Assembly: GCF_001647715.1 (NCBI RefSeq)
Contig: NZ_CP015600.1
Location: 1,240,001-1,304,000 of the forward strand
From: Pseudomonas antarctica
GTDB lineage: Bacteria > Pseudomonadota > Gammaproteobacteria > Pseudomonadales > Pseudomonadaceae
Direction of reading: 5' to 3'
Length of the DNA: 64,000 nucleotides
The translations under genes and the position numbers were made by a program. Shown here one piece after another: positions 49,506-64,000 of this stretch (position 1 is the stretch's first letter; every line of letters begins with the position of its first letter). Below the pieces are notes generated by a model. The model was not told the origin of the DNA, searched no databases, and saw nothing but the letters and a program-made list of their open reading frames with translations.

Positions 49506-51125
49506 TCAGGCAGCAGCGATTTCATTGGGCTCAAAACTGTCCGCCCGCGCCATCTGCCACATGCGCGAATAGAACTCGCCGTTCACCTCGCCCGTGAGCA
49601 ATTCACCGGGCTTGAGGAACACATGCAACTGCGAGAACAGCTTGATTTCAGTTGCGGACATACGCCGCACCAAATGCTTGGCCGACAGCTGCGCTGGATG
49701 ATCCAGGCCGGCTGCCGCAAGCATTTCCGCCAACGCCTTGAGGGTGTTGCGGTGGAAGTTGAATACGCGCTGGGCCTTGTCCGGCACCACCAGGGCCCGC
49801 TGGCGCAACGGGTCCTGGGTGGCGACGCCGGTCGGGCATTTGTTGGTGTGGCAGCTTTGTGACTGGATACAGCCGATGGCGAACATGAAACCGCGTGCCG
49901 AGTTGGCCCAGTCGGCGCCGATGGCCAGGACGCTGGCGATATCGAACGCACTGACGATCTTGCCGCTGGCGCCGAGTTTGATCTTGTCGCGCAGGTTCAG
50001 GCCGACCAGGGTGTTGTGCACAAACAGCAGGCCTTCACGCAGCGGCACGCCGATATGGTCGGTGAACTCCACGGGCGCGGCGCCGGTGCCGCCTTCCTTG
50101 CCGTCGACCACGATAAAGTCCGGGAGAATGCCGGTTTCCAGCATGGCCTTGGCAATGCCCATGAACTCCCACGGGTGGCCCAGGCAGAACTTGAAACCCA
50201 CCGGCTTGCCGCCGGACAGTTCGCGCAATTGGGCGATGAACTGCATCATTTCAATCGGCGTGGAGAAGGCACTGTGGCGCGACGGCGAGACGCAGTCTTC
50301 ACCCATCATGATGCCGCGGGTGTCGGCGATTTCCTGGGTGACCTTGTGCTTGGGCAGGATCCCGCCATGGCCGGGTTTGGCGCCCTGGCTCATCTTGATT
50401 TCGATCATGCGCACTTGCGGGTTTTGCGCTTGCACGGCGAAGCGTTCCGGGTCGAAACGGCCGTCGCTGGTGCGGCAGCCGAAGTAGCCGCTGCCCAGTT
50501 CCCAGGTCAGGTCGCCGCCGTTTTCACGGTGGTAGGGGCTGATGCTGCCTTCGCCGGTGTCATGGGCAAAGTTGCCGAGCTTGGCACCTTGGTTCAACGC
50601 GCGAATGGCGTTGGCGCTCAGGGACCCGAAGCTCATGGCCGAGATGTTGAACACCGACGCCGAGTACGGCTGCTTGCATTGCGGGCCGCCGACCATCACG
50701 CGAAAGGCGCTCGGGTCACTCAACGGCGCGGGGCGCATGGAGTGGCCGATAAATTCGAAACCCGACTGGTATACGTCGATCAAGGTGCCGAAGGGTTTAT
50801 CGGCCGTTTCGTTCTTGGCGCGCGAGTAAACCAGCGAGCGCTGGGCCCGGGAGAAGGGCAGGGCGTCGCTGTCGGATTCCAACAGGTACTGGCGGATTTC
50901 CGGGCGGATGGCTTCTACCAGGTAACGGATATTGCCCAGGATCGGGTAGTTGCGACGCACCGCGTGGGGGCTTTGCAGCAGGTCGAAAATCCCGATCAGG
51001 CTGAGAATGCCGGTGACTACGGTGATCGGCCACAGCCATTCATGTTCGATAAAGGGGAGGCTGGCGAGGGTGAAAATGACGCACACGGCAAAGAAGGCGT
51101 AACGGCTTAGTAACGACAGGCTCAT
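49506..51125 (-). CDS. FMN-binding glutamate-synthase-like protein
   Basis: A 539-residue protein with two N-terminal membrane segments (residues 8-45), then the FMN-binding domain of glutamate synthase (MSFGSLSANAIRALNQGAKLGNFAHDTGEGSIS, KMSQGAKPGHGGILP, VVDGKEGGTGAAPVEF) and the iron-sulphur cysteines in AIGCIQSQSCHTNKCPTGVA. It lacks the glutamine amidotransferase part, as archaeal-type and orphan family members do. Reaction not established; membrane anchoring is unusual for true glutamate synthase. Confidence 0.87.
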   Translation of the reverse strand: MSLSLLSRYAFFAVCVIFTLASLPFIEHEWLWPITVVTGILSLIGIFDLLQSPHAVRRNYPILGNIRYLVEAIRPEIRQYLLESDSDALPFSRAQRSLVYSRAKNETADKPFGTLIDVYQSGFEFIGHSMRPAPLSDPSAFRVMVGGPQCKQPYSASVFNISAMSFGSLSANAIRALNQGAKLGNFAHDTGEGSISPYHRENGGDLTWELGSGYFGCRTSDGRFDPERFAVQAQNPQVRMIEIKMSQGAKPGHGGILPKHKVTQEIADTRGIMMGEDCVSPSRHSAFSTPIEMMQFIAQLRELSGGKPVGFKFCLGHPWEFMGIAKAMLETGILPDFIVVDGKEGGTGAAPVEFTDHIGVPLREGLLFVHNTLVGLNLRDKIKLGASGKIVSAFDIASVLAIGADWANSARGFMFAIGCIQSQSCHTNKCPTGVATQDPLRQRALVVPDKAQRVFNFHRNTLKALAEMLAAAGLDHPAQLSAKHLVRRMSATEIKLFSQLHVFLKPGELLTGEVNGEFYSRMWQMARADSFEPNEIAAA

Positions 51126-51153
51126 ACGGTTTTCCTTGGTTCGGACTCATCGG

Positions 51154-51918
51154 CTAGGCGTTTTGCGCCTGAAGAAAGATCGAGAACAGCTCTGACTGGG
51201 ATTTGATCCCTAGCTTGCTGTACATGTGTTTCTTATGGACTTTCACGGTTTCAACAGAGATTTCCAGCTTACGGGCGATTTCCTTGCTGGAGCAACCGCT
51301 GAGCATCAAGCGGCCCACATCCAGCTCACGGGCAGTCAATTGCGCGCCCCACTCATCATTCTGGACGGGCGGCTGCGGTGTGCTGACCTGGTTAAGCTCG
51401 AAGGGCAGGCGTTGGCGCAGCAAACTCAACACCCAGGGTTGGATCAACGACAGCAAGGCGATTTGCTGCGGGTCAAAACGCTGCTTTGAGCCCAGTGACA
51501 GGCACAGGGTACGCCCGTCCGCCAGTTGGCAATTGAACTGGATTTCATCGGCCACCACGTTCAGGCGAAAGTAACGCTGGTAATACTCGGTGAGCTCGAA
51601 ATGCTCCGGCGCCACTTCAGCGAGGCGAAACAGGCCGGTGCGCGAATGCTCGCGGCTGGCGATGTAGAAGGGGTCGAGCAGGTACAGGCCGTTCAGGTAG
51701 TCCTGGAACAGATGGTCCGGCGTGCCATCGGCGCCTGGGCATTCGGCGAACACCAACGGGCGATGCGCGCTGCTGAACAGCAACACCACCCAACTGTCGA
51801 ACGGCACGTAGGCATCGAGCAACCGGACCAGTTGGGTCCAGAAGTTGGCCTGATCCAGGGCGTCTATCATTTGCCCCACCGAACGGTGCCAGGCGATGTC
51901 TTGCAGCGACATGGTCAT
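51154..51918 (-). CDS. LuxR-family transcriptional regulator
   Basis: A 254-residue regulator with the LuxR-type helix-turn-helix at about 190-250 (LTARELDVGRLMLSGCSSKEIARKLEISVETVKVHKKHMYSKLGIKSQSELF). The N-terminal 180 residues have no acyl-homoserine-lactone-binding signature that I could recognise. It is divergent, 93 bases, from the nitrilase-family gene, and so probably controls the nitrilase-permease pair. Confidence 0.88.
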   Translation of the reverse strand: MTMSLQDIAWHRSVGQMIDALDQANFWTQLVRLLDAYVPFDSWVVLLFSSAHRPLVFAECPGADGTPDHLFQDYLNGLYLLDPFYIASREHSRTGLFRLAEVAPEHFELTEYYQRYFRLNVVADEIQFNCQLADGRTLCLSLGSKQRFDPQQIALLSLIQPWVLSLLRQRLPFELNQVSTPQPPVQNDEWGAQLTARELDVGRLMLSGCSSKEIARKLEISVETVKVHKKHMYSKLGIKSQSELFSIFLQAQNA

Positions 51919-52011
51919 TGATCTACCCCTATCGGGTTACCCCTGCCGCGTAATTCCCTGACGGGGTGTGGCTGCGCATACTGCGGCACAGATTGAGAAC
52001 AAGGAATACCC

Positions 52012-52833
52012 ATGAAGGTCGAATTTGCCCAGTTGGCAGGTCGTGATAACGGCACAGCTTACAACCTTGAGCGCGCCTTGGCGGCAATTGCTGCCTGCGC
52101 CGCCGATACGCAACTGATCGTATTCCCGGAAACCCATCTGATGGGCTTCCCGTCGGCCGAGACCGTTGCCGACATCGCCGAACCGGTGGATGGCCCTACC
52201 GTGCAGGCTGTTATCCAGGCTGCCCGTGCACGCAATATCGGCGTGGTCGTCGGCATGGCCGAGCACGACGGCGGCCAATTCTACAACACCACGTTGCTGA
52301 TCACGCCCGAAGGCATCGCCCTGCGTTATCGCAAGACCCACTTGTGGGCCTCGGATCGCGGCGTGTTCACCCCGGGTGATCGCTACGCGACCTGCCTGTG
52401 GAACGGCGTGCGCGTCGGCCTGTTGATCTGCTACGACATCGAGTTCCCGGAAACCGCCCGCGCCCTGGCGCAGTTGGGCGCCGAGTTGCTGATCGTCACC
52501 AACGGCAACATGGACCCGTATGGCCCCACGCACCGCACCGCGATCATGGCCCGTGCCCAGGAAAACCAGGCGTTTGCGCTGATGGTCAACCGGGTGGAAG
52601 AGGGCGATGGCGGCCTGTTGTTTGCCGGTGGCAGTGCGCTGGTCGACCCGCTGGGCACCTTGTTGTTCGAGGCTGGGCGCGAGGAAGGGCAATTTACCGT
52701 CGAGCTGGATCTCGACCAACTGGTGGCGGCTCGCAAGGACTACCGCTACCTGGATGACCAGCGCTTGAAATTGCCGGGTGAGGTGATAGAGCGCAGCGAT
52801 GGGACCCGCGAGTTGTTGATTCCTAAAGCCTGA
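52012..52833 (+). CDS. Carbon-nitrogen hydrolase (nitrilase superfamily)
   Basis: A 273-residue cytoplasmic amidase/carbamoylase-type enzyme. The catalytic triad is Glu40 (FPETHL), Lys108 (RYRKTHLW) and Cys140 (LLICYDIEFPE). The substrate cannot be read; family members cleave omega-amides, N-carbamoyl amino acids or nitriles. It is followed by an APC permease on the same strand and faces a LuxR regulator, pointing to uptake and hydrolysis of an amine- or amide-type compound. Confidence 0.9.
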   Translation: MKVEFAQLAGRDNGTAYNLERALAAIAACAADTQLIVFPETHLMGFPSAETVADIAEPVDGPTVQAVIQAARARNIGVVVGMAEHDGGQFYNTTLLITPEGIALRYRKTHLWASDRGVFTPGDRYATCLWNGVRVGLLICYDIEFPETARALAQLGAELLIVTNGNMDPYGPTHRTAIMARAQENQAFALMVNRVEEGDGGLLFAGGSALVDPLGTLLFEAGREEGQFTVELDLDQLVAARKDYRYLDDQRLKLPGEVIERSDGTRELLIPKA

Positions 52834-52857
52834 TCGTCTTCGACGAGTGAGGTTGCG

Positions 52858-52877
52858 GTGGCGAGCCCGCTCGCCAC
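52858..52877. repeat. Short palindrome GTGGCGAG-CCCG-CTCGCCAC
   Basis: An 8-bp perfect stem with four-base loop, 24 bases after the nitrilase stop. It resembles a shortened REP unit and may be a weak hairpin between nitrilase and permease. Confidence 0.55.
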
Positions 52878-52964
52878 AAACGCTGTTTGAACATAAGAAA
52901 AATGACACCCGAGTCACCCACTTCAGTTCTGCCATAAATCTAATAAATCAGCGGAGAATCGCTC

Positions 52965-54290
52965 ATGGCTCGTTTGCAACGCACCCTGTCGTTAGGGTCG
53001 GTGGTGCTGTTCGGCATCGCCTATATGACGCCGATCATTGTGCTCGGCACCTTCGGCATCCTCGCACAATCCACCGCCGGCATGGTCCCCGCGGCCTACC
53101 TGGCCGCCCTGGTGGCGATGTTCTTTACCGCCATGAGTTACGGGCGTATGGCCCAGGCATTTCCGGTCGCCGGTTCTGCCTACAGCTATGTGCGCAAGGC
53201 GATCAGCCCCAAGCTGGGTTTTATCGCCGGTTGGGCGGTGTTGCTCGACTACCTGTTTTTGCCCATGGCCATCTGGCTGATCGGTGCGGCCTACCTCAAT
53301 TCGGCGTTTCCTTCGGTGCCGCAGTGGGTCTGGGTACTGGCGTTTATCGGCATCACCAGCGCGATCAATATTGTCGGCCTCAAGCTCGCCAACGGCATCA
53401 ACGCCTTGCTGATGCTGGTGCAGTTTTTAGTGTTGATTGCGTTTGTTGCGCTGTGCATTCACTACATCGGCGGCAACCCCAGCCAACCCCTGTGGACCCT
53501 CACGCCGTTCTTCAACGGACAGATGCAAATGCCGCTGATCATGAGCGGCGCGGCCATCGCCTGCTATTCATTCCTGGGCTTTGACGCGGTCAGTACCCTC
53601 ACCGAAGAAACCCGCGACCCACGCCGCACTATCCCACGGGCGATCATGTTGATTACCTTGATCGGCGGGCTGATTTTTGTGGCGGTGTCCTACTTTGTGC
53701 AGATCGCTCATCCGTCGTTTGAATTCGCCAATGTGGATTCGGCCGCGTATGAAATTGCGCGCAATATCGTCGGTGATGTGTTTGTGTCGATTTTCCTGAT
53801 CGGTCTGATCGTCGGCCAGTTCGCCTCGGGGCTGTCGGCCCAGGCCAGTGGTTCGCGCTTGTTGTATGCCATGGGCCGTGACGGTGTGTTGCCCAAGTCA
53901 TTCTTCGGCACATTGCATGCGCGCTTCGGCACGCCGGTCAACAGCATCTTGTTGTGTGCGGTTGTGGCGTTGCTGGCGCTGAAGCTGGATGTGACCACCT
54001 CCACGTCGTTCATCAACTTTGGTGCCTTCCTGGCGTTCAGCCTGGTGAACCTGTCGGTGATCTTTCACTACTGGATCGGCGCGAAAGCGCGTGGAGTACG
54101 AGCGTTGATCCTGTTCCTGCTGTTCCCGGCCATCGGCCTGGTTGCGGATGTGTGGCTGATGGTCAGCCTCGACCACCTGGCGATTTACCTGGGCCTGGTG
54201 TGGTTGGCGATCGGCCTGGTTTACCTGGGTTTTCTCACCCGGGGCTTCTCGCGACAGCCGCCGGAAATGGACTTCCAGGAAACCGCATAG
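52965..54290 (+). CDS. APC-family permease
   Basis: A 441-residue transporter with about 12 membrane segments. It carries the APC start [23 protein letters not shown], the [24 protein letters not shown] block of the PuuP-like (putrescine/amino acid) branch, and [16 protein letters not shown]. Likely importer of an amine or amino acid for the nitrilase-family enzyme upstream; the pair is 131 bases apart with a weak hairpin between. Confidence 0.88.
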
Positions 54291-54343
54291 AAGCTTGCGG
54301 TCTATTCTTATTGCAATCGGTTCTCGTTTGGGTGCGTATTTTA

Positions 54344-54358
54344 TGTTATTGTATAACA
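54344..54358. promoter_or_regulatory. Zur-like box upstream of the L31 paralogue
   Basis: TGTTAT-TGT-ATAACA, a perfect 6-bp inverted repeat, embedded in ATGTTATTGTATAACAC, matches the core of the E. coli Zur consensus. It lies 32 bases upstream of the ATG at 54391. Confidence 0.82.
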
Positions 54359-54390
54359 CATCAAATGCACCCAAACGCCCCGGAGGCCTT

Positions 54391-54663
54391 ATGAAAGCTG
54401 GTATCCATCCCGACTACCGCACCGTGCTGTTCCACGACACCGCCGCCGACGCGTTCTTCCTGATCGGCTCCACTGCCGACAGTGATCGCACCCATAAACA
54501 CAGCGACGGCCACACTTACCCTTACATCCCGCTGGACGTGTCCAGCGCCTCGCACCCGATCTACACCGGCCAACAGCGCAAGACCCAGGCCGAAGGCCGG
54601 ATTGCCGGGTTCAACAAGCGTTTCGCTTCGTTTGGGTCGAGCCCGAAAAAAGCCGAGGCATGA
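54391..54663 (+). CDS. rpmE2: 50S ribosomal protein L31 type B (zinc-independent paralogue)
   Basis: A 90-residue L31 of the C-minus type: begins [20 protein letters not shown] and lacks the CxxC pair of zinc-binding L31; a C-terminal basic tail follows the block [10 protein letters not shown]. Such paralogues replace the zinc form during zinc shortage and are Zur-repressed, in agreement with the box upstream. SD CGGAGG at 54381-54386. In many bacteria it is paired with an L36 paralogue (rpmJ2); none is seen here. Confidence 0.92.
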
Positions 54664-54669
54664 GGTCGT

Positions 54670-56055
54670 TTAAGCCGTTTGCCGAATGGGCAGCACCACT
54701 TTAAAGGTGGTGCCTTTGCCCAATTCGCTACGGACGGTGATAGCGCCACGGTGTTTTTTGACGATGCCGTAGGAGAGTGACAAGCCCAACCCGGTCCCTT
54801 CGCCTACCGGCTTGGTAGTGAAGAATGGATCGAAGATTTTCTGCACGCTGTCCGGGGCAATCCCGCAGCCGTTGTCTGCGACTTCCAACCAAATGTTCTC
54901 GCCATCCACCCCATTGCTGATGGTAATAGTGCCGCGCTCCGGCCCCATGGCTTGCGCCGCATTGATGACCAGGTTCATCACCACTTGGTTGAGCTGCGAC
55001 GCCAGGCATTCGATTTCCGGCAGCGGCGTGTACTGCTTGACCACGTCGGCCTTGTACTTGAGTTCGCTGGCGACAATGTTCAAGGTCGAGTCGATGCCCT
55101 GTTGCAGGTTCGCCCACTGCCAGTTCTGATCGTTATCCACCCGGGAAAAGTCCTTCAAATCCTTGACGATCTGTACCACGCGGCCAATACCCTCTTTCGA
55201 TTCGCGAAGCAGCGTGGGAATGTCTTCCTTGAGGAAATCCAGGTCCAGACGCCGGCGCAGGGCTTCGAACTGCTCACTGTCTGTGGCGGTTTCGGCCTGT
55301 CGATAGGCATCGAGCATCTCTTGGAGCTGGTCAAAGTAACCCCCCAGAGTGCCGAGATTGGACGAAATAAACCCCACCGGGTTATTGATTTCGTGGGCCA
55401 CGCCGGCCGCCAGTTGGCCCAGGGAGGCGAGTTTTTCCGACTGCACCAGCTGGCTTTCCAGCTGTTTACGCTCGTCGATCTCCAGTTGCAGTGCCTGGCT
55501 TGCCTGGGTCAGTGCCTGGGTGCGTTGCTCAACCAGGTGTTCCAGGTGGCTGGTTTGCAAAGACGCGCGCCGCGCCATGCTCCATTTTGCGGCCAGGGTA
55601 TTGGCCATCTGCTGTACTTCAATGTTGTCGAAGGGTTTTTTAAGGATCAGCAGGCGGTCATGGGCTTGCAGGCGAAACAGCAGCTCTTCCCAGGAGTAAT
55701 CCGAGTAGGCCGTACACACCACCACTTGCAGGTCCGGGTCAACTTTCCAGAGTTCTTCAATGGTCTGCGCACCGTCCCAGCCTTGGGGCATGCGCATGTC
55801 GACAAAGGCCAGGGCATAGGGTTTTTGCTCGGCCATGGCGACCTCAAGCAACTTCAGCCCCTCTTGGCCACCGTAGGCCGAGTCCAGTTCGAACACGGGG
55901 CCATGCGGCGTGTCGCTGGCACCGAATAGCGCAGCTTCCATGTCGTCCAGCGCCTGGTTCTGTTCCATGGGCGGCATGAGGATTTTGCGGAAGTCTTCGT
56001 GAATCGATGGTGTGTCGTCGATCAGCAGAATGCGCCGGTTCGAAGGTTCGTTCAT
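54670..56055 (-). CDS. REC-histidine kinase hybrid (N-terminal receiver)
   Basis: A 461-residue soluble signalling protein. Receiver at about 8-155 with phospho-acceptor Asp86 ([11 protein letters not shown]) and the Lys of LILKKPF; an additional stretch before the third strand ([15 protein letters not shown]) is shared with the receiver at 58874. A coiled coil (165-210) leads to HisKA with His221 ([11 protein letters not shown]) and HATPase_c ([35 protein letters not shown]). Its ATG overlaps the stop of the upstream kinase gene by four bases. Output kinase of a phosphorelay. Confidence 0.9.
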
Positions 56056-57863
56056 GCTTGGCCTGCTGCATCGTTAAGTGGGATTTGCAACGTGAACACG
56101 GCGCCTTTGCCTGGCCCGTCGCTATGGGCGGTGAGGTGGCCGTTCATTTCAATGGCCGCCAGGGCGCAGCTGTGCAGGCCGAAACCATGACCCTCTTTGC
56201 GTGTGGTGAAGCCGTGGGTAAAGATCCGCGTCATGTTTTCGGCGGGGATGCCTTCGCCTTCGTCCTTGACGCTGATCTGCAAGAGGCTGTCCTCCAGTGT
56301 CGTGATCGACAAGGTGATCTGCCGTGGGCGGTCGGTCAGGTTCGACATGGCGTACTTGGCGTTGCTGATCAGGTTGACCATGATCAGCAGCAACCGGTGT
56401 TTGTCCGCCATCAGTTGCGGCACCTCGGCATACTCCTTGACCACCGTCACATGGTGGCGATTCAGCGCCCCGGCGTTCATGCGCAGGGCGTCGTCCATCA
56501 AGGCACCGATCTCCACGGGCTCCAGCAGGCTGGAAGCGCCGGCGTAGGATTGCTGGGTGGAGACGATGTCCTTGATGTGGTCCACGCTCTTGCTCAACTG
56601 CGCCAGTTCATCGGTCAGGCCCTGTTGCTCGAGGGCGATGGCCTCCACCAGTTGGTTGAGGTAGCCGGGCAGCAATTTGCCTTTCTCGTCCTCGCGCAGG
56701 TAAGTACCCAGGTCGTCAGGGTGCTCGTTGATCAGTTGCATGGCCTTACCCAGCCCCAGTGCCTTGCTGGTGCGCAGCTTGCGTGCGACCAGTTCGGCGG
56801 AGATGTTTACGCTGTTGAGCACGTTGCCGACGTTGTGCAGCACATTGGTCGCGATTTCCGCCATGCCGGCCTGGCGGGCGCTGTCCAGCAGTTCGCTCTG
56901 GGCATCTCTGAGTTCCCGCGTGCGCGCCTCGACGCGCTGTTCAAGGCTTTCATTGACCCCGTGCAAGGCGCGGTTGACCCGGTTGATCTCGGCAAAGCTG
57001 CGCAACAAGCGAATGGCCAGGTACAACAAGAGCACGACCAGCAGCGTAGAAAATACCAGCAGGTAGCGGTGGTATTTCTGGTCAATCAGGTCGGCGGCGG
57101 CCTGGTCCTGGTTGAGTTGGGTGGTCAGGTCATCCAGTTGATCTGAAAGGGGAATCGCGGCGATACGACCGAGCAGGTCGTTGACGATGGGTTGCTCGCG
57201 CAAAATCAACGCGATGTGGTTACTGAGAATCTCCACCGGCACCTGGAATTCGGTTGGCAGGTTTTCTTTGTTCACCGCCAGTTTGTTCAGCCCCACGAGG
57301 ATGTCCGCGGCTTTGTCGTCGCTTGTCACCTGGGCGAACTCCAGGGCGCTGAGCAGCAAGTCGTAAGTGTCGGTGGCGATGCTTTGCTGTTCCAGCTTGT
57401 CGGTGTCTTTGAGTCGCAGGAAATGCGCCTGGATATCGTCTTCGGCGGTCGGCAAAAAGGCCAGGGAATTGCGCAGTACCGCATTGTGCGATTTGAACTG
57501 CTCCACTAATCGGGCCTTTTCCTGAATCGACTGGCGATAAGCATCCTGCGCGGCCAGCCAGTCGGCTGGGTGTTCGTGGTGGTGTTGCCCTTCGCGACTT
57601 TCCAGCAGGGTCCACAGTTGGCTCATTTCCTTGAGGGGGGCCACCAGCGGGTCATAGTTGTGGGTGAGGGCGATCCTGGCCTTGAGCACCTCGACGTCCC
57701 ACTGGGAATTGAGTTGCTTGATCTGGCGTATCAGGTCGCGCGACTCGGTGTAGGTGGTGGACTGGTCGCCGATCGATTTGAGGTACAGAAATATCAGCAC
57801 CGAGGCCAGTATCAGGGCGATGCCGCTGAGCGTGATCAGGCTGGCGAGGCGGGATGATTTCAT
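56052..57863 (-). CDS. Membrane sensor histidine kinase with periplasmic DAHL-like domain
   Basis: A 603-residue kinase. Membrane segments at about 8-30 and 262-282 flank a helical periplasmic domain of about 230 residues with the alpha-helical layout of DAHL domains. A coiled coil then leads to an H-box variant (AEIATNVLHNVGNVLNSVN, acceptor His) and HATPase_c (LLIMVNLISNAKYAM, DEGEGIP, FGLHSCALAAIEMNGHL). The ATG at 57863 overlaps the cytochrome c peroxidase stop (ATGA), so peroxidase and kinase are co-translated; this suggests the peroxidase feeds the signal sensed. Confidence 0.88.
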   Translation of the reverse strand: MKSSRLASLITLSGIALILASVLIFLYLKSIGDQSTTYTESRDLIRQIKQLNSQWDVEVLKARIALTHNYDPLVAPLKEMSQLWTLLESREGQHHHEHPADWLAAQDAYRQSIQEKARLVEQFKSHNAVLRNSLAFLPTAEDDIQAHFLRLKDTDKLEQQSIATDTYDLLLSALEFAQVTSDDKAADILVGLNKLAVNKENLPTEFQVPVEILSNHIALILREQPIVNDLLGRIAAIPLSDQLDDLTTQLNQDQAAADLIDQKYHRYLLVFSTLLVVLLLYLAIRLLRSFAEINRVNRALHGVNESLEQRVEARTRELRDAQSELLDSARQAGMAEIATNVLHNVGNVLNSVNISAELVARKLRTSKALGLGKAMQLINEHPDDLGTYLREDEKGKLLPGYLNQLVEAIALEQQGLTDELAQLSKSVDHIKDIVSTQQSYAGASSLLEPVEIGALMDDALRMNAGALNRHHVTVVKEYAEVPQLMADKHRLLLIMVNLISNAKYAMSNLTDRPRQITLSITTLEDSLLQISVKDEGEGIPAENMTRIFTHGFTTRKEGHGFGLHSCALAAIEMNGHLTAHSDGPGKGAVFTLQIPLNDAAGQA

Positions 57864-58849
57864 AGGGGCTTGCCTGCCCATTCGCCGGTCAGCGTCTTGA
57901 GGAATTTGATGATCAGCGTCTTGTCCTCCGCCGACGGAATTCGCCCGAGTTGGTACTTGAACATGATGTCGACGGCCTCCTCCAGAGTCTTGGCCGAGCC
58001 ATCGTGAAAGTACGGCGCGGTGACGGCAACGTTGCGCAGGCTCGGCACCTTGAACACGTTGCGGTCTTCCTCGTCCTTGGTCAGCAGGTAGCGGCCCAGG
58101 TCGGCTTCGGTCGGGTTGCCACGGGCCTTGAAGTAATCGCCCATCACCCCGAACTTCTGGTACATGTTGCCGCCGATATTGGCGCCCTGGTGGCAGGCGA
58201 TACAGCCATAGTCCTTGAAGCGTTGGTAGCCATATTTCTCATCGGTGGTGAGGATGTCGGTATTGCCTTGCAGGTACTGGTCGAAGCGCGAATTGGGTGT
58301 GAGCAACGTGCGCTCATAGGTGGCCAGGGCATCCTGCACGTTGGCTGCCGTCACCCCGTCGGGATACACCTGCTGGAACGCGGCCTGGTAAGTGGGCAGT
58401 GCCGATAGGGTCCGGACCACAGTCTGCCAGTCGTTGCCCATTTCCATAGGGCTGACGACCACCTGTTCAACCTGCGCTTGCAGGGTGTCGACTCTGGCGT
58501 TCCAGAATTGTTTGAAGTTCAGGCTGGCGTTGAACACCGTCGGGGTGTTGAGCTTGACCGGCTTGCCATCGAAACCCAGGGAAAATGCGCTGTTATCGTC
58601 ACCACCGGCTTCCAGATTATGGCAACTGGCACAGGACTTGGAGTTATTGACGGACAGTTGCGTCTCATTGAATAACTGGCGCCCCAACTCCACGGTGGCT
58701 GCATCCAGCATCGGCACCGGCGGCAATGGTTTGAGCGGTTCATCCAACGGCGCTGCCGAGACGGGCAGGCAGGTGCCATAGCCCAGGGCCAGGGTCATGC
58801 CCAGAACCCGTGGTGACAGGTGAAGAGTGCGTGGTGTGCTGCGGCTCAA
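57860..58849 (-). CDS. Di-haem cytochrome c peroxidase (MauG/CcpA family)
   Basis: A 329-residue periplasmic peroxidase with Sec signal peptide (to about residue 33) and two haem motifs CASCH (73-77) and CIACH (216-220); the conserved NTPTVFNASLNF, DTLQAQVEQVVVSPMEMG and APYFHDGSAKTLEEAV are family hallmarks. It reduces H2O2 with electrons from cytochrome c or acts as a redox sensor. Start is TTG with AAGGAG seven bases before it. It follows the REC-GGDEF-EAL gene by 24 bases and overlaps the kinase gene. Confidence 0.92.
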   Translation of the reverse strand: MSRSTPRTLHLSPRVLGMTLALGYGTCLPVSAAPLDEPLKPLPPVPMLDAATVELGRQLFNETQLSVNNSKSCASCHNLEAGGDDNSAFSLGFDGKPVKLNTPTVFNASLNFKQFWNARVDTLQAQVEQVVVSPMEMGNDWQTVVRTLSALPTYQAAFQQVYPDGVTAANVQDALATYERTLLTPNSRFDQYLQGNTDILTTDEKYGYQRFKDYGCIACHQGANIGGNMYQKFGVMGDYFKARGNPTEADLGRYLLTKDEEDRNVFKVPSLRNVAVTAPYFHDGSAKTLEEAVDIMFKYQLGRIPSAEDKTLIIKFLKTLTGEWAGKPL

Positions 58850-58873
58850 GCGGTCGCTCCTTGCGGCAAAAAA

Positions 58874-60748
58874 TCAGTGGGCAGGCAACAGGCTGGGGTG
58901 CCCGGTTTGCAGCAGTTGGGCGAATTCATCGGCGGCTACGGCCTTGCTGAACAGGAAACCCTGGCCCTCTTCACACTGGTGAGCTTTCAGAAATTGCAGC
59001 TGTGCAATGGTTTCCACGCCTTCGGCGACGATGTTCAAGTCCAGGCTTTTACCCAGGCTGATGATTGCGCTGATCAATTGCGCGTCCTGGCTGTTGTTGC
59101 TCAAACCGCGAATGAACGATTGATCGATTTTCAGCACATCAATCGGAAAGCGTCGCAGGTAGCTGAGGCTGGAATACCCGGTGCCGAAGTCGTCGACGGA
59201 CAGCCGCACGCCCAGTGTCTTGATCTCGCGCAAGGTGGTGAGCGTGTCGTCGACGTTTTGCATCAGCACGCTTTCCGTGATTTCCAACTCCAGCAACTGC
59301 GGCGTCAGGCCCGTTTGCTCAAGGATCGCCGCCAGGTTGACGACAAAGTTACGCTGGCGAAAATCAATCGCTGAAATATTCACCGAGATACAGGTCGGCG
59401 GCAGCCCGGCGGCCTGCCACGCGCGCGCTTGCTCACACGCCTGGCGCAATACCCATTGGCTCAACGGCACGATCAGGCCACTGTCTTCGGCCACGGGAAT
59501 GAAGGCGGACGGGTAGATCCAGCCATGATCGGGCTGATGCCAGCGAATCAAGGCTTCGGCGCCGACGATTTTCCCGCTGTGCAAGTCCAGTTTCGGCTGG
59601 TAGTGCAAGGTGAATTCATCGCGCTGCAGGGCCTGCCGGATGGCGCTTTCCAGGCTTTGCTGTTCCTGCGCGCGCAGGTTCATCTCGTCGATGAAAAAAC
59701 TGAAATCGTTGGGGCCTTGGTCTTTGATGGCGCGCATCGCGGTTTCGGCTTTTTTGATCAATTCCACGGCGCTGCTGCTGTCATCGGGGTAAACACTGAT
59801 GCCAAGGCTTGCGGTGACGCTCAGGTCGTGGCCGGCCACATAGTGGGTGGTGCTGACGGCGGCGAGGAGTTTTTCGGCAATGTACTGGGTTTGCTGGGGA
59901 TGCTTGATGTCGTTGAGGATCAGCACAAATTCGTCGGAGCCGTAGCGAAACACCGAATCCGACTCGCGCACCGTCGCCACCAGGCTTTGGCTGACAAGCT
60001 TGAGCATTTCATCGCCGACCGGATGGCCCAGGGCATTGTTGATGCGCTTGAAGCGGTCCAGGCCAATAAAGATCACGGCCAGTTGGGTGCCATGCCGTCT
60101 GCAGACGGCAGTGGCTTGGGTCAGGCGGTCGCCCAGCAGGGTGCTGTTGGGCAGTTCGGTCAGGGCGTCGTATTGCAACAGGTGCGAGACCTTGAGCAGT
60201 TCCTGGACCCTTTCCTCAATCGTGCGTTCGAGCCCGATCAGCTTGAATGCGGCGTCCTGCGCCAACTGCCATTTCCAAGTCAGGGCACTGGCCATCTGGC
60301 GAATTTCCAGGTCGTCGAAGGGCTTTTTCAGGATCAGCAACTGGTCGTCGTATTTGAGGCGCGCCTCAATGGCTTCGAAGGAGTAGTCGGAGTAGGCCGT
60401 GCAAAGGGCGATTTGCAGGTTGGGGTCAACGTTCCATAGCTGTTCGATAGTTTCCAGGCCATCCCAGCCCGGCGGCATGCGCATGTCGATGAAGACCAGG
60501 GCATACGGGGCGTTGTCGGCCAGGGCTTTGTTCACCAGGGCCAGCGCTTCCTGGCCCTGATAGGCGGAATCCAGTACAAAGGTCTGGCGCACGGCCGGGG
60601 CGCTGCCGAACAGGGTTTCTTCGATGCTGTCCAGGGTCTGGCCGCCGTTGGCGTCGGCGCACAGGATCTTGCGGAAGTCCGCGTGGATTGAGGCGGTATC
60701 ATCGACGATCAGAATGCGTCGATTGGCGCGTTCCGAGCGCGGACTCAT
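58874..60748 (-). CDS. Response regulator with REC, GGDEF and EAL domains
   Basis: A 624-residue soluble c-di-GMP regulator. Receiver at about 10-155 with Asp88 (LVFIDMRMPPG), a GGDEF-type domain whose active site reads GSDEF (270-274), and an EAL domain with EAL at 398-400, NISAIDF, EITESVL, DDFGTGYSSL and KIDQSFI, all expected for an active phosphodiesterase. The receiver resembles the one in the REC-kinase of the same locus, including the inserted segment. Promoter-proximal gene of the minus-strand operon. Confidence 0.9.
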   Translation of the reverse strand: MSPRSERANRRILIVDDTASIHADFRKILCADANGGQTLDSIEETLFGSAPAVRQTFVLDSAYQGQEALALVNKALADNAPYALVFIDMRMPPGWDGLETIEQLWNVDPNLQIALCTAYSDYSFEAIEARLKYDDQLLILKKPFDDLEIRQMASALTWKWQLAQDAAFKLIGLERTIEERVQELLKVSHLLQYDALTELPNSTLLGDRLTQATAVCRRHGTQLAVIFIGLDRFKRINNALGHPVGDEMLKLVSQSLVATVRESDSVFRYGSDEFVLILNDIKHPQQTQYIAEKLLAAVSTTHYVAGHDLSVTASLGISVYPDDSSSAVELIKKAETAMRAIKDQGPNDFSFFIDEMNLRAQEQQSLESAIRQALQRDEFTLHYQPKLDLHSGKIVGAEALIRWHQPDHGWIYPSAFIPVAEDSGLIVPLSQWVLRQACEQARAWQAAGLPPTCISVNISAIDFRQRNFVVNLAAILEQTGLTPQLLELEITESVLMQNVDDTLTTLREIKTLGVRLSVDDFGTGYSSLSYLRRFPIDVLKIDQSFIRGLSNNSQDAQLISAIISLGKSLDLNIVAEGVETIAQLQFLKAHQCEEGQGFLFSKAVAADEFAQLLQTGHPSLLPAH

Positions 60749-61005
60749 GATTGATACCCTGAGGCGTGCAACAACATGCTCTGGCGCATAGGGCTTCCTT
60801 ACCTCGAATGCTTCGGTACATGGGGACGGTCGCCAGCTTCATGCGACAAGCATAGTCGGCTCCCTTGAATAAGTCGGCCAGTTGGCGTCAAATCAAAGTC
60901 AGCTACCCCGACCGTCATCTAGCGCTCAATGCGTGAGCAAGTACAGCGGTGGATCACGTCGGGCCGCAATGAAGCAATTGTGTGTCATTGCCAGGAGGTG
61001 TCGCC
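60749..61005. other. Divergent promoter region of the signalling locus
   Basis: A 257-base gap between the REC-GGDEF-EAL gene and the HD-GYP-like gene. No regulator site could be assigned; AGGAGGTG at 60990-60997 is the ribosome binding site of the plus-strand gene. Confidence 0.5.
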
Positions 61006-62352
61006 ATGGATGAACAAACTGCTACGACTCCCCCCTACACCCCCACCATTTTGCTGGTCGACGACGAAGAATCGATCCTCAATAGCCTGCGCCGCCTGCT
61101 GCGTGGCCAACCCTATGATGTGCGGTTGGCTGGCAGTGGTGCCCAAGCCCTGGAAATCATGGCGGCCCAGCCCATCGACCTGGTGATGACCGACGCGCGC
61201 ATGCCGGCCATGGACGGGGCGATGCTGCTGGCCGAGACCCACCGCCTGTACCCGTCCACCACCCGCATCCTGCTGACCGGCTATGCCGACATGAGCATGA
61301 TGATCAAGGCGATCAACGAAGGTCAGATTCACCGCTACATCAGCAAGCCCTGGAACGACGAGGAAATGCTGCTGACCTTGCGTCAGTCCCTGGACCACCA
61401 GCATTCCGAGCGCGAACGGCTGCGTCTTGAACAGTTGACCCGCGAGCAGAACGACCAGTTGAAGGCCCTTAACGCGACCCTGGAAAAGCGCGTCGAAGCC
61501 CGCACCAGTGAGTTGCAGCAAACCGCCGATATGCTCGACCTGGCCTACGACGAACTCAAGCGCAGCTACGTGACCGGCACCGAAGTGTTTTCACTGTTGG
61601 CCAACTTGCGCCTGCCCAAGCAGAAGCAGACCAATCGCCAGCTGATCGAGCTGATTCGGGTGTATTGCAAGGCCCAGGCGATGGACGAAGCCAGTGCCCG
61701 CGACCTGACCATGGCCGCCGCGCTCTATAACATCGGCAAATTGAGCTGGAGCGACAGCATGATGGTCGCGCCCTCGGACATGCTGCACAGCACCGACCGT
61801 GAACGCTATCGGGCCTACCCGACCCAGAGCGAGTCGTTGTTGATGACTCTGGAGCCGATGAAGGACGCCGCGCGCTTGATTCGTCATCACCAGGAACGCT
61901 GGGACGGCAGCGGTTTTCCCGACCACCTCAAAGGCGAGTTGATCCCCTCGGGCGCCCGGTTATTGAAGCTTGCGGTCGATTTTATCGAGCTGCAAAAGGG
62001 CCTGATCCTCGAGCGCCACATGAACAGCGATGAAGCGCTGCTCTACATCCGTAAATACGCCGGCAAGCTCTATGACCCGGATATGGTCGAAGACTTCGTG
62101 CAGGCCTGCGCCGCGTTCCTCAGTGACGTGACGCTGGGGGATTCAAGCGTGAAGGTCTTGACCACCCGCGAACTCGCCGAGGGCATGGTGCTGGCGCGCA
62201 ATCTCAACGCCGATAACGGCATGCTGCTGCTCAACGCCGGCAAGGTGTTGAACCTGCCGCTGGTGGACAAGTTGATTGCGTTTGAGGCGATGGAAGGGGC
62301 CAAGTATTCGGTGTTTATCAAAGAACCGGATGTGGCTGCGCTTCCCGGTTAA
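61006..62352 (+). CDS. Response regulator with degenerate HD-GYP domain
   Basis: A 448-residue protein. Receiver with Asp63 (VMTDARMPAMDG), coiled-coil linker (130-190), then an HD-GYP fold. The catalytic HD of HDIGK is replaced by YN (YNIGKLSWSD at 241-250), while HHQERWDGSGFP (294-305) keeps the second part with F for Y. Loss of the HD pair makes phosphodiesterase activity unlikely; a role in protein interaction or c-di-GMP binding is possible. SD AGGAGG. Divergent from the operon that contains the peroxidase and kinases. Confidence 0.88.
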   Translation: MDEQTATTPPYTPTILLVDDEESILNSLRRLLRGQPYDVRLAGSGAQALEIMAAQPIDLVMTDARMPAMDGAMLLAETHRLYPSTTRILLTGYADMSMMIKAINEGQIHRYISKPWNDEEMLLTLRQSLDHQHSERERLRLEQLTREQNDQLKALNATLEKRVEARTSELQQTADMLDLAYDELKRSYVTGTEVFSLLANLRLPKQKQTNRQLIELIRVYCKAQAMDEASARDLTMAAALYNIGKLSWSDSMMVAPSDMLHSTDRERYRAYPTQSESLLMTLEPMKDAARLIRHHQERWDGSGFPDHLKGELIPSGARLLKLAVDFIELQKGLILERHMNSDEALLYIRKYAGKLYDPDMVEDFVQACAAFLSDVTLGDSSVKVLTTRELAEGMVLARNLNADNGMLLLNAGKVLNLPLVDKLIAFEAMEGAKYSVFIKEPDVAALPG

Positions 62353-62399
62353 GACGCTTTCTGTGATCCTTGCACCTTTGCATTCAAGGCATTTTTTAC

Positions 62400-62813
62400 A
62401 TGACATCGACTATTCGCATCGCCGCCGCGCTGTTGATCGGCAGCGACGGCCAAACGCTGCTGGTGCGCAAGCGCGGCACCCAGGCCTTCATGCAGCCAGG
62501 CGGCAAGATTGACGCGGGCGAACAGCCCGCCGAAGCCTTGGCCCGTGAGCTGTACGAGGAGCTCAACCTGCACATCGACCCTAGCGACGCCGTGTATTTG
62601 GGGCACTTCTCGGCGCCTGCCGCCAACGAGCCGGGTTTCATTGTGGAAGCTGAACTGTTCCAGGTGCACATCGACGTGGCGGTGACGCCCGCGGCTGAAA
62701 TCGAAGAAGTGCGCTGGATCGACCCGGCCGGTGATGGCGGCCTGCACTTGGCACCACTGACCCGCGACCTGATCCTGCCGTTTTATCGCGCCTCGCTGAC
62801 GGCTACCGCCTGA
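62400..62813 (+). CDS. Nudix hydrolase
   Basis: A 137-residue Nudix protein with an intact Nudix box at residues 35-57 (G-x5-E-x7-REL-x-EE-x-L). It would hydrolyse a nucleoside diphosphate derivative; substrate not readable. The ATG at 62400 is preferred over an in-frame one at 62370 because the domain begins with TSTIRIAAALLIGSDGQ. Lies 26 bases before the GNAT gene. Confidence 0.9.
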   Translation: MTSTIRIAAALLIGSDGQTLLVRKRGTQAFMQPGGKIDAGEQPAEALARELYEELNLHIDPSDAVYLGHFSAPAANEPGFIVEAELFQVHIDVAVTPAAEIEEVRWIDPAGDGGLHLAPLTRDLILPFYRASLTATA

Positions 62814-62839
62814 TTCACAGGCGCAAAGGACTGCAACGA

Positions 62840-63346
62840 ATGATGATTCGCACCCTGGATGCCCATGACGCCGAGGCTTATCGAACGTTGATGCTTGAGA
62901 CGTATGACGCCTACCCCCAGGCGTTCACGTCCAGCGTGGCCGAGCGATCGGCCATGCCGTTAAGTTGGTGGGAAAAACGCATTGAGAGCCCGCTGGATCA
63001 CTTGCTCGGCGCGTACCTCGGCGACGAACTGGTCGGAATTGTCGGCCTGGCCTTCGAGCCCCGTGAAAAGGCACGGCACAAGGTGACCTTGTTCGGCATG
63101 TACGTCACGCAGGCTTATCAAATGAAGGGCCTGGGTCGTCGGTTAGTGGAGGCGGCACTCGTCGAGGCGTGCAAGCATCCGCGCCTTAAGGTGATTCAAC
63201 TGACCGTCACCGCCGGCAACGACGCAGCCTTTGCGTTGTACCAGCGTTGCGGGTTTATTCAGTACGGCCTGGAGCCGCTGGCGGTGCGGGTGGGTGTCGA
63301 GTATTTCGACAAAATCCACATGTGGCGCGAACTCAACGTTGCCTGA
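62840..63346 (+). CDS. GNAT-family N-acetyltransferase
   Basis: A 168-residue acetyltransferase: acetyl-CoA motif QMKGLGRRLVEAAL near residues 95-108, preceded by the strand VTLFGMYVTQAY and followed by the GNDAAFALYQRCGF helix. Acceptor unknown. It follows the Nudix gene by 26 bases, so the two may be co-transcribed. Confidence 0.88.
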   Translation: MMIRTLDAHDAEAYRTLMLETYDAYPQAFTSSVAERSAMPLSWWEKRIESPLDHLLGAYLGDELVGIVGLAFEPREKARHKVTLFGMYVTQAYQMKGLGRRLVEAALVEACKHPRLKVIQLTVTAGNDAAFALYQRCGFIQYGLEPLAVRVGVEYFDKIHMWRELNVA

Positions 63347-63370
63347 AATCCCATGGGGACACTCGATCCA

Positions 63371-63453
63371 GTGTGGGAGCCCGCTTACCTGCGATGGTTT
63401 CGCCTCGGTGCTGCAGCCAGATCGGTCGTCTGCATCACAGGCAAGCCATCCCC
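63371..63453. repeat. Degenerate paired REP element
   Basis: GTGTGGGAGCCCGCTTACCTGCGATGG and the facing ATCACAGGCAAGCCATCCC are a decayed REP pair between the convergent GNAT and LysR genes. Confidence 0.55.
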
Positions 63454-63472
63454 GTATTTTGATCTGCGCCGT

Positions 63473-64000
63473 TCAGCGAACGGCGCTGACACCGTCCAGC
63501 GTGGAAAACGACGTGTCCTTGGCCGTGAGTAAAAAGTCGCGCATGTACGGCGCGTCCAACATGTCGGCGCGAATCCCTGCATACAGCGTGGCAAACAGCC
63601 CTTTCTCGCCCAAACGCTTGGCCTTCACGTAACCGCGCGAGCTGTATTCATGCAGCGCCCAATGCGGCATGCCGCACACGCCCCGGCCGCTGGCCACCAG
63701 TTGCATCATCATCACGGTCAGCTCCGAGGTGCGCACCTGGGCTGGCTCCACATCGGCCGGTTCCAGGAAGCGGGTGAAGATGTCCAGGCGATCGCGCTCC
63801 ACCGGGTAGGTGATCAGGGTTTCGGTCAGCAGGTCTTGGGGCACGATGTACGACTTGTTCGCCAGCGCGTGCTGGTTGGCCACGGCCAGCATGGCTTCGT
63901 AGGTGAACAGCGGCACATAGGTGATGCCCGGCAGCTCCAGCGGGTCGGAGGTCACCACCAGGTCCAGGTCACCACGGGCCAGGGCCGGTAAGGGCGCAAA
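63473..64000 (-). CDS. metR: LysR-family regulator, MetR-like (C-terminal part)
   Basis: Partial gene: the N-terminal DNA-binding half lies beyond the right edge. The 175 or so residues seen form the effector domain of a LysR regulator, with ALARGDLDLVVTSDPLELPGITYVPLFTYEAMLAV and VASGRGVCGMPHWALHEYSSRGYVKAKRLG matching MetR, the homocysteine-responsive activator of methionine genes. Assignment to MetR rests on this half only. Confidence 0.75.
   Translation of the reverse strand, partial: FAPLPALARGDLDLVVTSDPLELPGITYVPLFTYEAMLAVANQHALANKSYIVPQDLLTETLITYPVERDRLDIFTRFLEPADVEPAQVRTSELTVMMMQLVASGRGVCGMPHWALHEYSSRGYVKAKRLGEKGLFATLYAGIRADMLDAPYMRDFLLTAKDTSFSTLDGVSAVR

Follow-up and report, generated by a model that had tools for sequence, protein, structure and literature searches.

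A di-haem peroxidase relative encoded beside DAHL sensor domains across Pseudomonadota is a candidate periplasmic co-receptor

Introduction

Why is the gene for a relative of haem peroxidases embedded among genes for signal transduction, and what would such a protein do there? The question is raised by a 64,000-nucleotide stretch of the Pseudomonas antarctica genome (NCBI RefSeq assembly GCF_001647715.1, contig NZ_CP015600.1, positions 1,240,001 to 1,304,000), here termed the window, which contains a four-gene operon on the minus strand. Its genes encode, in order, a REC-GGDEF-EAL response regulator (58874..60748; Pfam EAL E = 2e-73, GGDEF E = 6e-43), a di-haem protein of the cytochrome c peroxidase (CCP)/MauG family (57860..58849; PF03150, E = 2e-55), a membrane histidine kinase (56052..57863; PF19443, E = 2e-53, and PF02518) and the operon's second kinase, a REC-HisKA-HATPase protein recognized by Pfam (54670..56055; REC-kinase). 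The membrane kinase consists of a transmembrane (TM) helix, a periplasmic DAHL domain, a second TM helix, a helix with the candidate phospho-acceptor His343, and HATPase_c. The initial annotation had described the gene content and order, though not the DAHL domain, together with the 24-base gap between the first two genes and the ATGA overlaps at the CCP/kinase and kinase/REC-kinase junctions, all of which is borne out by the sequence and by Pfam. It had also suggested that the haem protein is part of the sensing unit and that the output changes cyclic di-GMP (c-di-GMP). The answer developed here, which we consider probable, is that the DAHL kinase uses the CCP as a co-receptor in the periplasm, for H2O2, another ligand or a redox state.

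Results

A CCP gene adjoins nearly every DAHL sensor gene

A profile search with the DAHL domain alone, in which neighbouring genes were ignored, of 274 genomes of the class and 398 genomes of the phylum gave 113 distinct hits above the Pfam cut-off; 59 were returned with their loci and the surrounding regions of the remaining 54 were fetched. A CCP open reading frame (ORF) lies immediately upstream and on the same strand at 100 of the 113, and these pairs span 78 genomes, 49 genera and 39 families, with four in the genus Pseudomonas. Among the 13 hits that have no upstream CCP, three (L205, L209 and L214) end upstream at a contig edge and one (L207) has a DAHL domain that was not re-found with our own profile. 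At the other nine (L130, L172, L173, L185, L202, L203, L204, L211 and L213), and likewise at three Pseudomonas paralogue loci, no replacement partner was recognized upstream by a check that rested on CxxCH motifs, none of which occurs in the ORFs inspected, without a family search. Unlinked CCPs are themselves common: a CCP_MauG match is present in 231 of the 398 phylum genomes, and 24 of the 30 best-scoring phylum CCP loci have no DAHL domain in the flank examined. A DAHL domain nearly always implies an adjacent CCP, and the converse is false. No single ORF fusing CCP and DAHL was found among the loci scanned for one, and a plasmid search with DAHL gave seven weak rhizobial matches.

Within Pseudomonas, 80 named loci (L022-L101) were collected by kinase alignment, and the CCP gene stands directly before the DAHL kinase gene in 79 of them, 78 being scored by script and one (L077, where a broken kinase frame misled the script) from the table rows; the lone exception, L062, has lost the CCP. 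The REC-GGDEF-EAL gene precedes the CCP gene in 74 of the 80 (it is missing from that position in L038, L047, L048 and L094, and L099 is truncated by the contig), the REC-kinase gene adjoins and follows that of the DAHL kinase in 77, and an HD-GYP gene lies upstream on the opposite strand in 74. In all 78 Pseudomonas CCP ORFs examined, ATGA is formed by the last base and the stop codon. A second, separate sample of 119 Pseudomonas genomes yielded a DAHL protein above the family cut-off in 49, and in all 49 main kinases the CCP domain is encoded 492-518 nt upstream of the DAHL domain. The initial annotation had staked its suggestion on conserved gene order, and the order is conserved, both for CCP and kinase in Pseudomonas and for CCP and DAHL across the 39 families. 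Chance clustering is ruled out by the 100 pairs among 113 hits, the 49 main kinases and the Pseudomonas order, these counts being given without a formal null for adjacency.

Weaker DAHL paralogues in Pseudomonas have an adjacent CCP in none of 13 cases, and the main CCP-DAHL pair is present in all 13 of these genomes; the paralogues may share the CCP of the main pair or respond to another ligand. A second DAHL kinase with no adjoining CCP was also seen in L017, L018, L019 and L185, always beside a CCP-DAHL pair in the genome.

The distance matrices of CCP and DAHL are correlated (r = 0.56; the highest of 1000 permutations was 0.14), and when partners were swapped within the 17 genomes that have at least two pairs, the observed correlation was never reached in 2000 trials. 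These sequence comparisons indicate joint inheritance of the CCP and DAHL genes. Linked genes would be expected to behave in this way, and the pattern is by itself no proof of contact.

The linked CCP keeps both haem motifs and lacks the distal histidine

The window CCP scores 188 bits with PF03150 (cut-off 25.6) and has two CxxCH motifs, as expected of the CCP/MauG superfamily. The first, CASCH (C73-H77; 58619..58633, minus strand), corresponds by homology to the peroxidatic haem and is whole in 99 of the 100 linked CCPs, the other having Thr in place of Cys76. The second, CIACH (C216-H220; 58190..58204, minus strand), corresponds by homology to the electron-transfer haem and is present in all 100; the Gln221 that follows it is a signature of linked CCPs (94/100 versus 4/79 unlinked). 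While the protein retains Glu136, Gln126, Trp116 and Met296 of the classical CCP residue set, Phe93 (58571..58573, minus strand) occupies the alignment column of the distal His of the classical peroxidatic haem, and this His is found in just one of the 100 linked CCPs versus 57 of the 79 unlinked ones. The catalytic Glu is missing in 24 linked CCPs (present in 76) versus none of the 79 unlinked. Ten of these 24 also lack the Gln, and both haem motifs are retained in all 24. Of the 100 linked CCPs, 74 have Glu and Gln together and 96 have the Met296 that belongs to the electron-transfer haem. DAHL-linked CCPs group together on the CCP tree. Loss of the distal His was considered as a mark unique to sensor CCPs and is ruled out, as 22 of the 79 unlinked CCPs, including YhjA-like ones, also lack it. 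The unlinked set at first comprised the 24 top-scoring CCPs and was widened because of the top-score bias by 55 more (40 among the phylum matches listed and 15 from a Pseudomonas list), and some bias is left because the additions were themselves picked from listed matches; one further CCP-like ORF of less than 100 bits was excluded.

The CCP is predicted to be periplasmic. An N-terminal hydrophobic stretch is present in 96 of the 100 linked proteins by a crude hydrophobicity measure with a threshold of 1.8, and the window CCP is among the four that fall under it (1.46), though its N terminus is signal-peptide-like.

The DAHL domain is a predicted all-helical sensor

The DAHL domain of the window kinase (57072..57758, minus strand) scores 181.8 bits with PF19443 (cut-off 38) and is flanked by the two predicted TM helices. 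Its AlphaFold2 model has eight helices (predicted local distance difference test score, pLDDT, 95), and a fold search places the model nearest to the sensor domains of TorS and McpS, which suggests an all-helical, TorS/McpS-like fold; a PDB sequence search with the domain gave no credible match. Across 95 sequences the nearly invariant DAHL positions are D71, K124, N132 and L275, and His343 is invariant in 10 aligned kinases. In a protein database search with the kinase, the matches listed (120 of 5745) contain DAHL and HATPase_c with no further Pfam domain, and all organisms named among them are Pseudomonas.

Outputs vary while the CCP is constant

The 57 linked DAHL proteins with stop-closed frames carry HATPase_c (41), PAS (39), HisKA (31), receiver (23), GGDEF (11), EAL (7) and nucleotide cyclase (1) domains, and a cruder scan of all 100 assigned 55 to kinases, 15 to GGDEF and 13 to GGDEF-EAL proteins, leaving 17 unassigned. 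Output domains thus differ among these loci and the CCP is constant, so that the CCP follows the sensor domain rather than the output, which supports its being part of the sensing unit. A c-di-GMP enzyme was found by crude scan at 50 of the 100 pairs, within the DAHL protein itself at 28 and otherwise in the flank at 22; the flanks reached at most 1.5 kb in L102-L160 and at most 4 kb in L161-L214, so 50 is probably an undercount. The idea that the CCP invariably accompanies c-di-GMP enzymes is rejected, given these 50 loci and the 41 of 57 linked DAHL proteins that have a kinase ATPase domain. On gene content, the proposed c-di-GMP output is supported in Pseudomonas and at roughly half of the 100 pairs.

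An active diguanylate cyclase needs a GG(D/E)EF motif, and an EAL phosphodiesterase needs EAL together with other metal and substrate motifs. The window REC-GGDEF-EAL protein has GSDEF in place of GGDEF, as do most of 74 orthologue ORFs (GSDEF 63, GADEF 7, GSDQF 1, GSDTF 1, no pattern match 2), and it has GAEAL plus the further EAL motifs, recognized by eye (orthologues: GAEAL 61, GVEAL 4, no pattern match 9). This combination of a degenerate GGDEF and intact EAL motifs makes it likely that the protein is a phosphodiesterase that degrades c-di-GMP. A second upstream hit of GGDEF/EAL type was counted in 43 of the 80 Pseudomonas loci. The one copy read, at L051:4677-7124 (plus strand), is a REC-PAS-GGDEF-EAL gene with the HD-GYP gene on one side and the operon on the other. 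It has an intact GGDEF (RLGGDEF) and a seemingly degenerate EAL (MEAQ), the opposite of the core protein, as though cyclase and phosphodiesterase had been set next to each other in L051.

Operon neighbourhood

The divergent gene at 60982..62352 (plus strand), part of the operon neighbourhood, encodes a REC-HD-GYP protein by Pfam and NCBI family models; it scores 579 bits (cut-off 400) with the NCBI NosR family NF053512, the model name of which includes 'nitric'. Its HD and GYP motifs read YN and GFP, and these substitutions make its phosphodiesterase activity doubtful. The Pseudomonas loci L059, L062 and L090 keep the genes for the REC-GGDEF-EAL protein and DAHL kinase, and in the stretch examined they have neither a REC-kinase nor an HD-GYP gene, which suggests that the latter two go together. 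HD-GYP-type ORFs were also seen by crude scan near several CCP-DAHL loci of other families.

Upstream of the operon, a conserved block at 60850..60900 (minus strand) is a possible promoter or operator; of 11 aligned intergenic regions, 10 contain GATTTGACGCCAA and eight contain ACTTATTCAA. No sigma-70 consensus was called in this block, a scan for promoters and terminators gave no signal exceeding shuffled controls, and Rfam had no match in window positions 50000-64000. The CCP gene has a TTG start preceded by GGAG, and the kinase is taken to start at ATG 57863, which overlaps the CCP stop (ATGA) and agrees with its relatives, rather than at ATG 57881, where the ORF list begins it. Convergent on the operon end is a gene (54391..54663, plus strand) for a protein that resembles type B ribosomal protein L31. 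The operon's CCP and kinase are the sole PF03150 and DAHL matches in the window genome. The nearest named loci place this genome in the P. fluorescens group, and the top kinase identity among the named loci listed, from which very near genomes are possibly absent, is 90% (L049, P. haemolytica).

Discussion

The comparative evidence, a conserved pairing in which outputs change and the CCP stays, supports the earlier suggestion that the haem protein belongs to the sensing unit. In the mechanism that we favour, the always-open peroxidatic haem would respond to H2O2, to a different small ligand or to the redox poise of the periplasmic cytochrome pool, and this response would shift the conformation or redox state of the CCP and so change the way in which the CCP docks on the helical DAHL domain, much as TorT acts on TorS. 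The DAHL domain would then drive the kinase, from which a phosphoryl signal would pass to the REC domains of the REC-kinase and the REC-GGDEF-EAL protein, and perhaps also of the REC-HD-GYP protein. With an intact EAL and a degenerate GGDEF, lowered c-di-GMP would be the likelier output. The contact between CCP and DAHL, the ligand and the direction of the output are elements that we infer. As a caution, with the catalytic Glu missing in 24 of the 100 linked CCPs, turnover of peroxide may not be the signal in every case.

That loss, with haem motifs that persist, is the starting point for the alternative that survives best, namely that the CCP is a co-receptor for a signal other than peroxide, such as the redox state of c-type cytochromes, nitric oxide (NO) or another haem ligand. 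It is also in keeping with the retention of Met296 in 96 of 100 linked CCPs and with the NosR-family score of the divergent REC-HD-GYP protein, yet the peroxide-cleaving Glu and Gln are kept together in 74 linked CCPs, the window's included, and we regard this alternative as tentative. It is unlikely that the CCP simply detoxifies H2O2 as a conventional peroxidase of the periplasm and has no sensing role, its gene lying beside that of the sensor that controls its use while DAHL senses alone. With Glu136, Gln126, Trp116 and Met296 in place the window CCP could be active; McpS, among the nearest folds to DAHL, binds its ligand directly; and no CCP adjoins the paralogous DAHL kinases of Pseudomonas. 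Against this, the CCP stays constant while outputs switch from kinase to GGDEF-EAL, and a detoxifying enzyme would not be expected to lack Glu in 24 cases, and Gln in ten of these, with haem motifs kept in every one. A MauG-like modifying enzyme, whose oxidized side chains on DAHL or another periplasmic protein would be the signal, is very improbable, for although CCP, MauG and MbnH share a superfamily and a missing distal ligand is reminiscent of MauG, the electron-transfer haem retains Met296 and not the Tyr of MauG, the catalytic Glu is missing in those 24 linked CCPs, and no Trp or Tyr is nearly invariant in the 95 DAHL sequences.

A co-receptor function of the CCP could extend well beyond this operon. 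We see about an even chance that a former peroxidase is the standard periplasmic co-receptor of DAHL sensors across Pseudomonadota, and that haem chemistry at an open site, rather than turnover, feeds kinases, cyclases and phosphodiesterases; if so, DAHL would be a domain that reads haem proteins. DAHL occurs in many families, and its near-constant genetic partner provides a hypothesis that can be tested directly and that covers 100 loci from 39 families. If the hypothesis is correct, haem peroxidase relatives would join the short list of periplasmic co-receptors, CCP-family proteins that lack catalytic residues and keep their haem motifs would be explained, and soil pseudomonads would have a means of coupling peroxide or redox conditions in the periplasm to c-di-GMP and, through it, perhaps to the control of biofilms.

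Helical sensors that work with a co-receptor are already known; a system of such breadth in which the co-receptor is related to di-haem peroxidases is apparently undescribed. No title or abstract among the literature matches listed describes the CCP-DAHL pair, bioRxiv and most subscription papers being outside the coverage, and no signal for DAHL was apparent among those listed for the domain name; PMC2147049 proved a false lead. In a network study of the CCP_MauG superfamily (PMC6405878), named clusters include those of CCPs, MauG and BthA, and 'kinase' is absent from the main text.

The window CCP shares its fold, two haem c motifs, Trp bridge and Glu/Gln pocket with the classical CCPs of Nitrosomonas europaea (1iqc), Shewanella oneidensis (3o5c) and Pseudomonas aeruginosa (1eb7/2vhd), and linked CCPs differ from these in having no distal His on the peroxidatic haem, an adjoining sensor gene and, in part, no Glu. 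YhjA, a quinol peroxidase (YhjA/QPO; PDB 9qdt), has a third, N-terminal haem (PMC10301912), whereas the window CCP has only two CxxCH motifs; E. coli, one of 14 control genomes, gave no DAHL match. MauG, BthA and MbnH belong to the same superfamily as the window CCP, which has Met296 instead of the Tyr ligand of the six-coordinate haem of MauG and scores 126.6 bits with the NCBIfam MauG model (cut-off 443.85), and no mau genes were recognized among the ten neighbouring proteins scanned. On the sensor side, the periplasmic domain of Agrobacterium VirA needs a soluble periplasmic protein, ChvE, for sugar sensing (PMC9149312). Residues 20-349 of the window kinase match the NCBI VirA-like model NF010411 (E = 5e-41), although far under its cut-off; ChvE is a sugar-binding protein, and a GAF-like linker and a receiver domain are additional parts of VirA. 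In TorS-TorT, a sensor kinase for trimethylamine N-oxide (TMAO) works with a periplasmic binding protein. TorT has the periplasmic-binding-protein fold, whereas the partner of DAHL is a di-haem protein of the CCP family, with c-di-GMP enzymes downstream.
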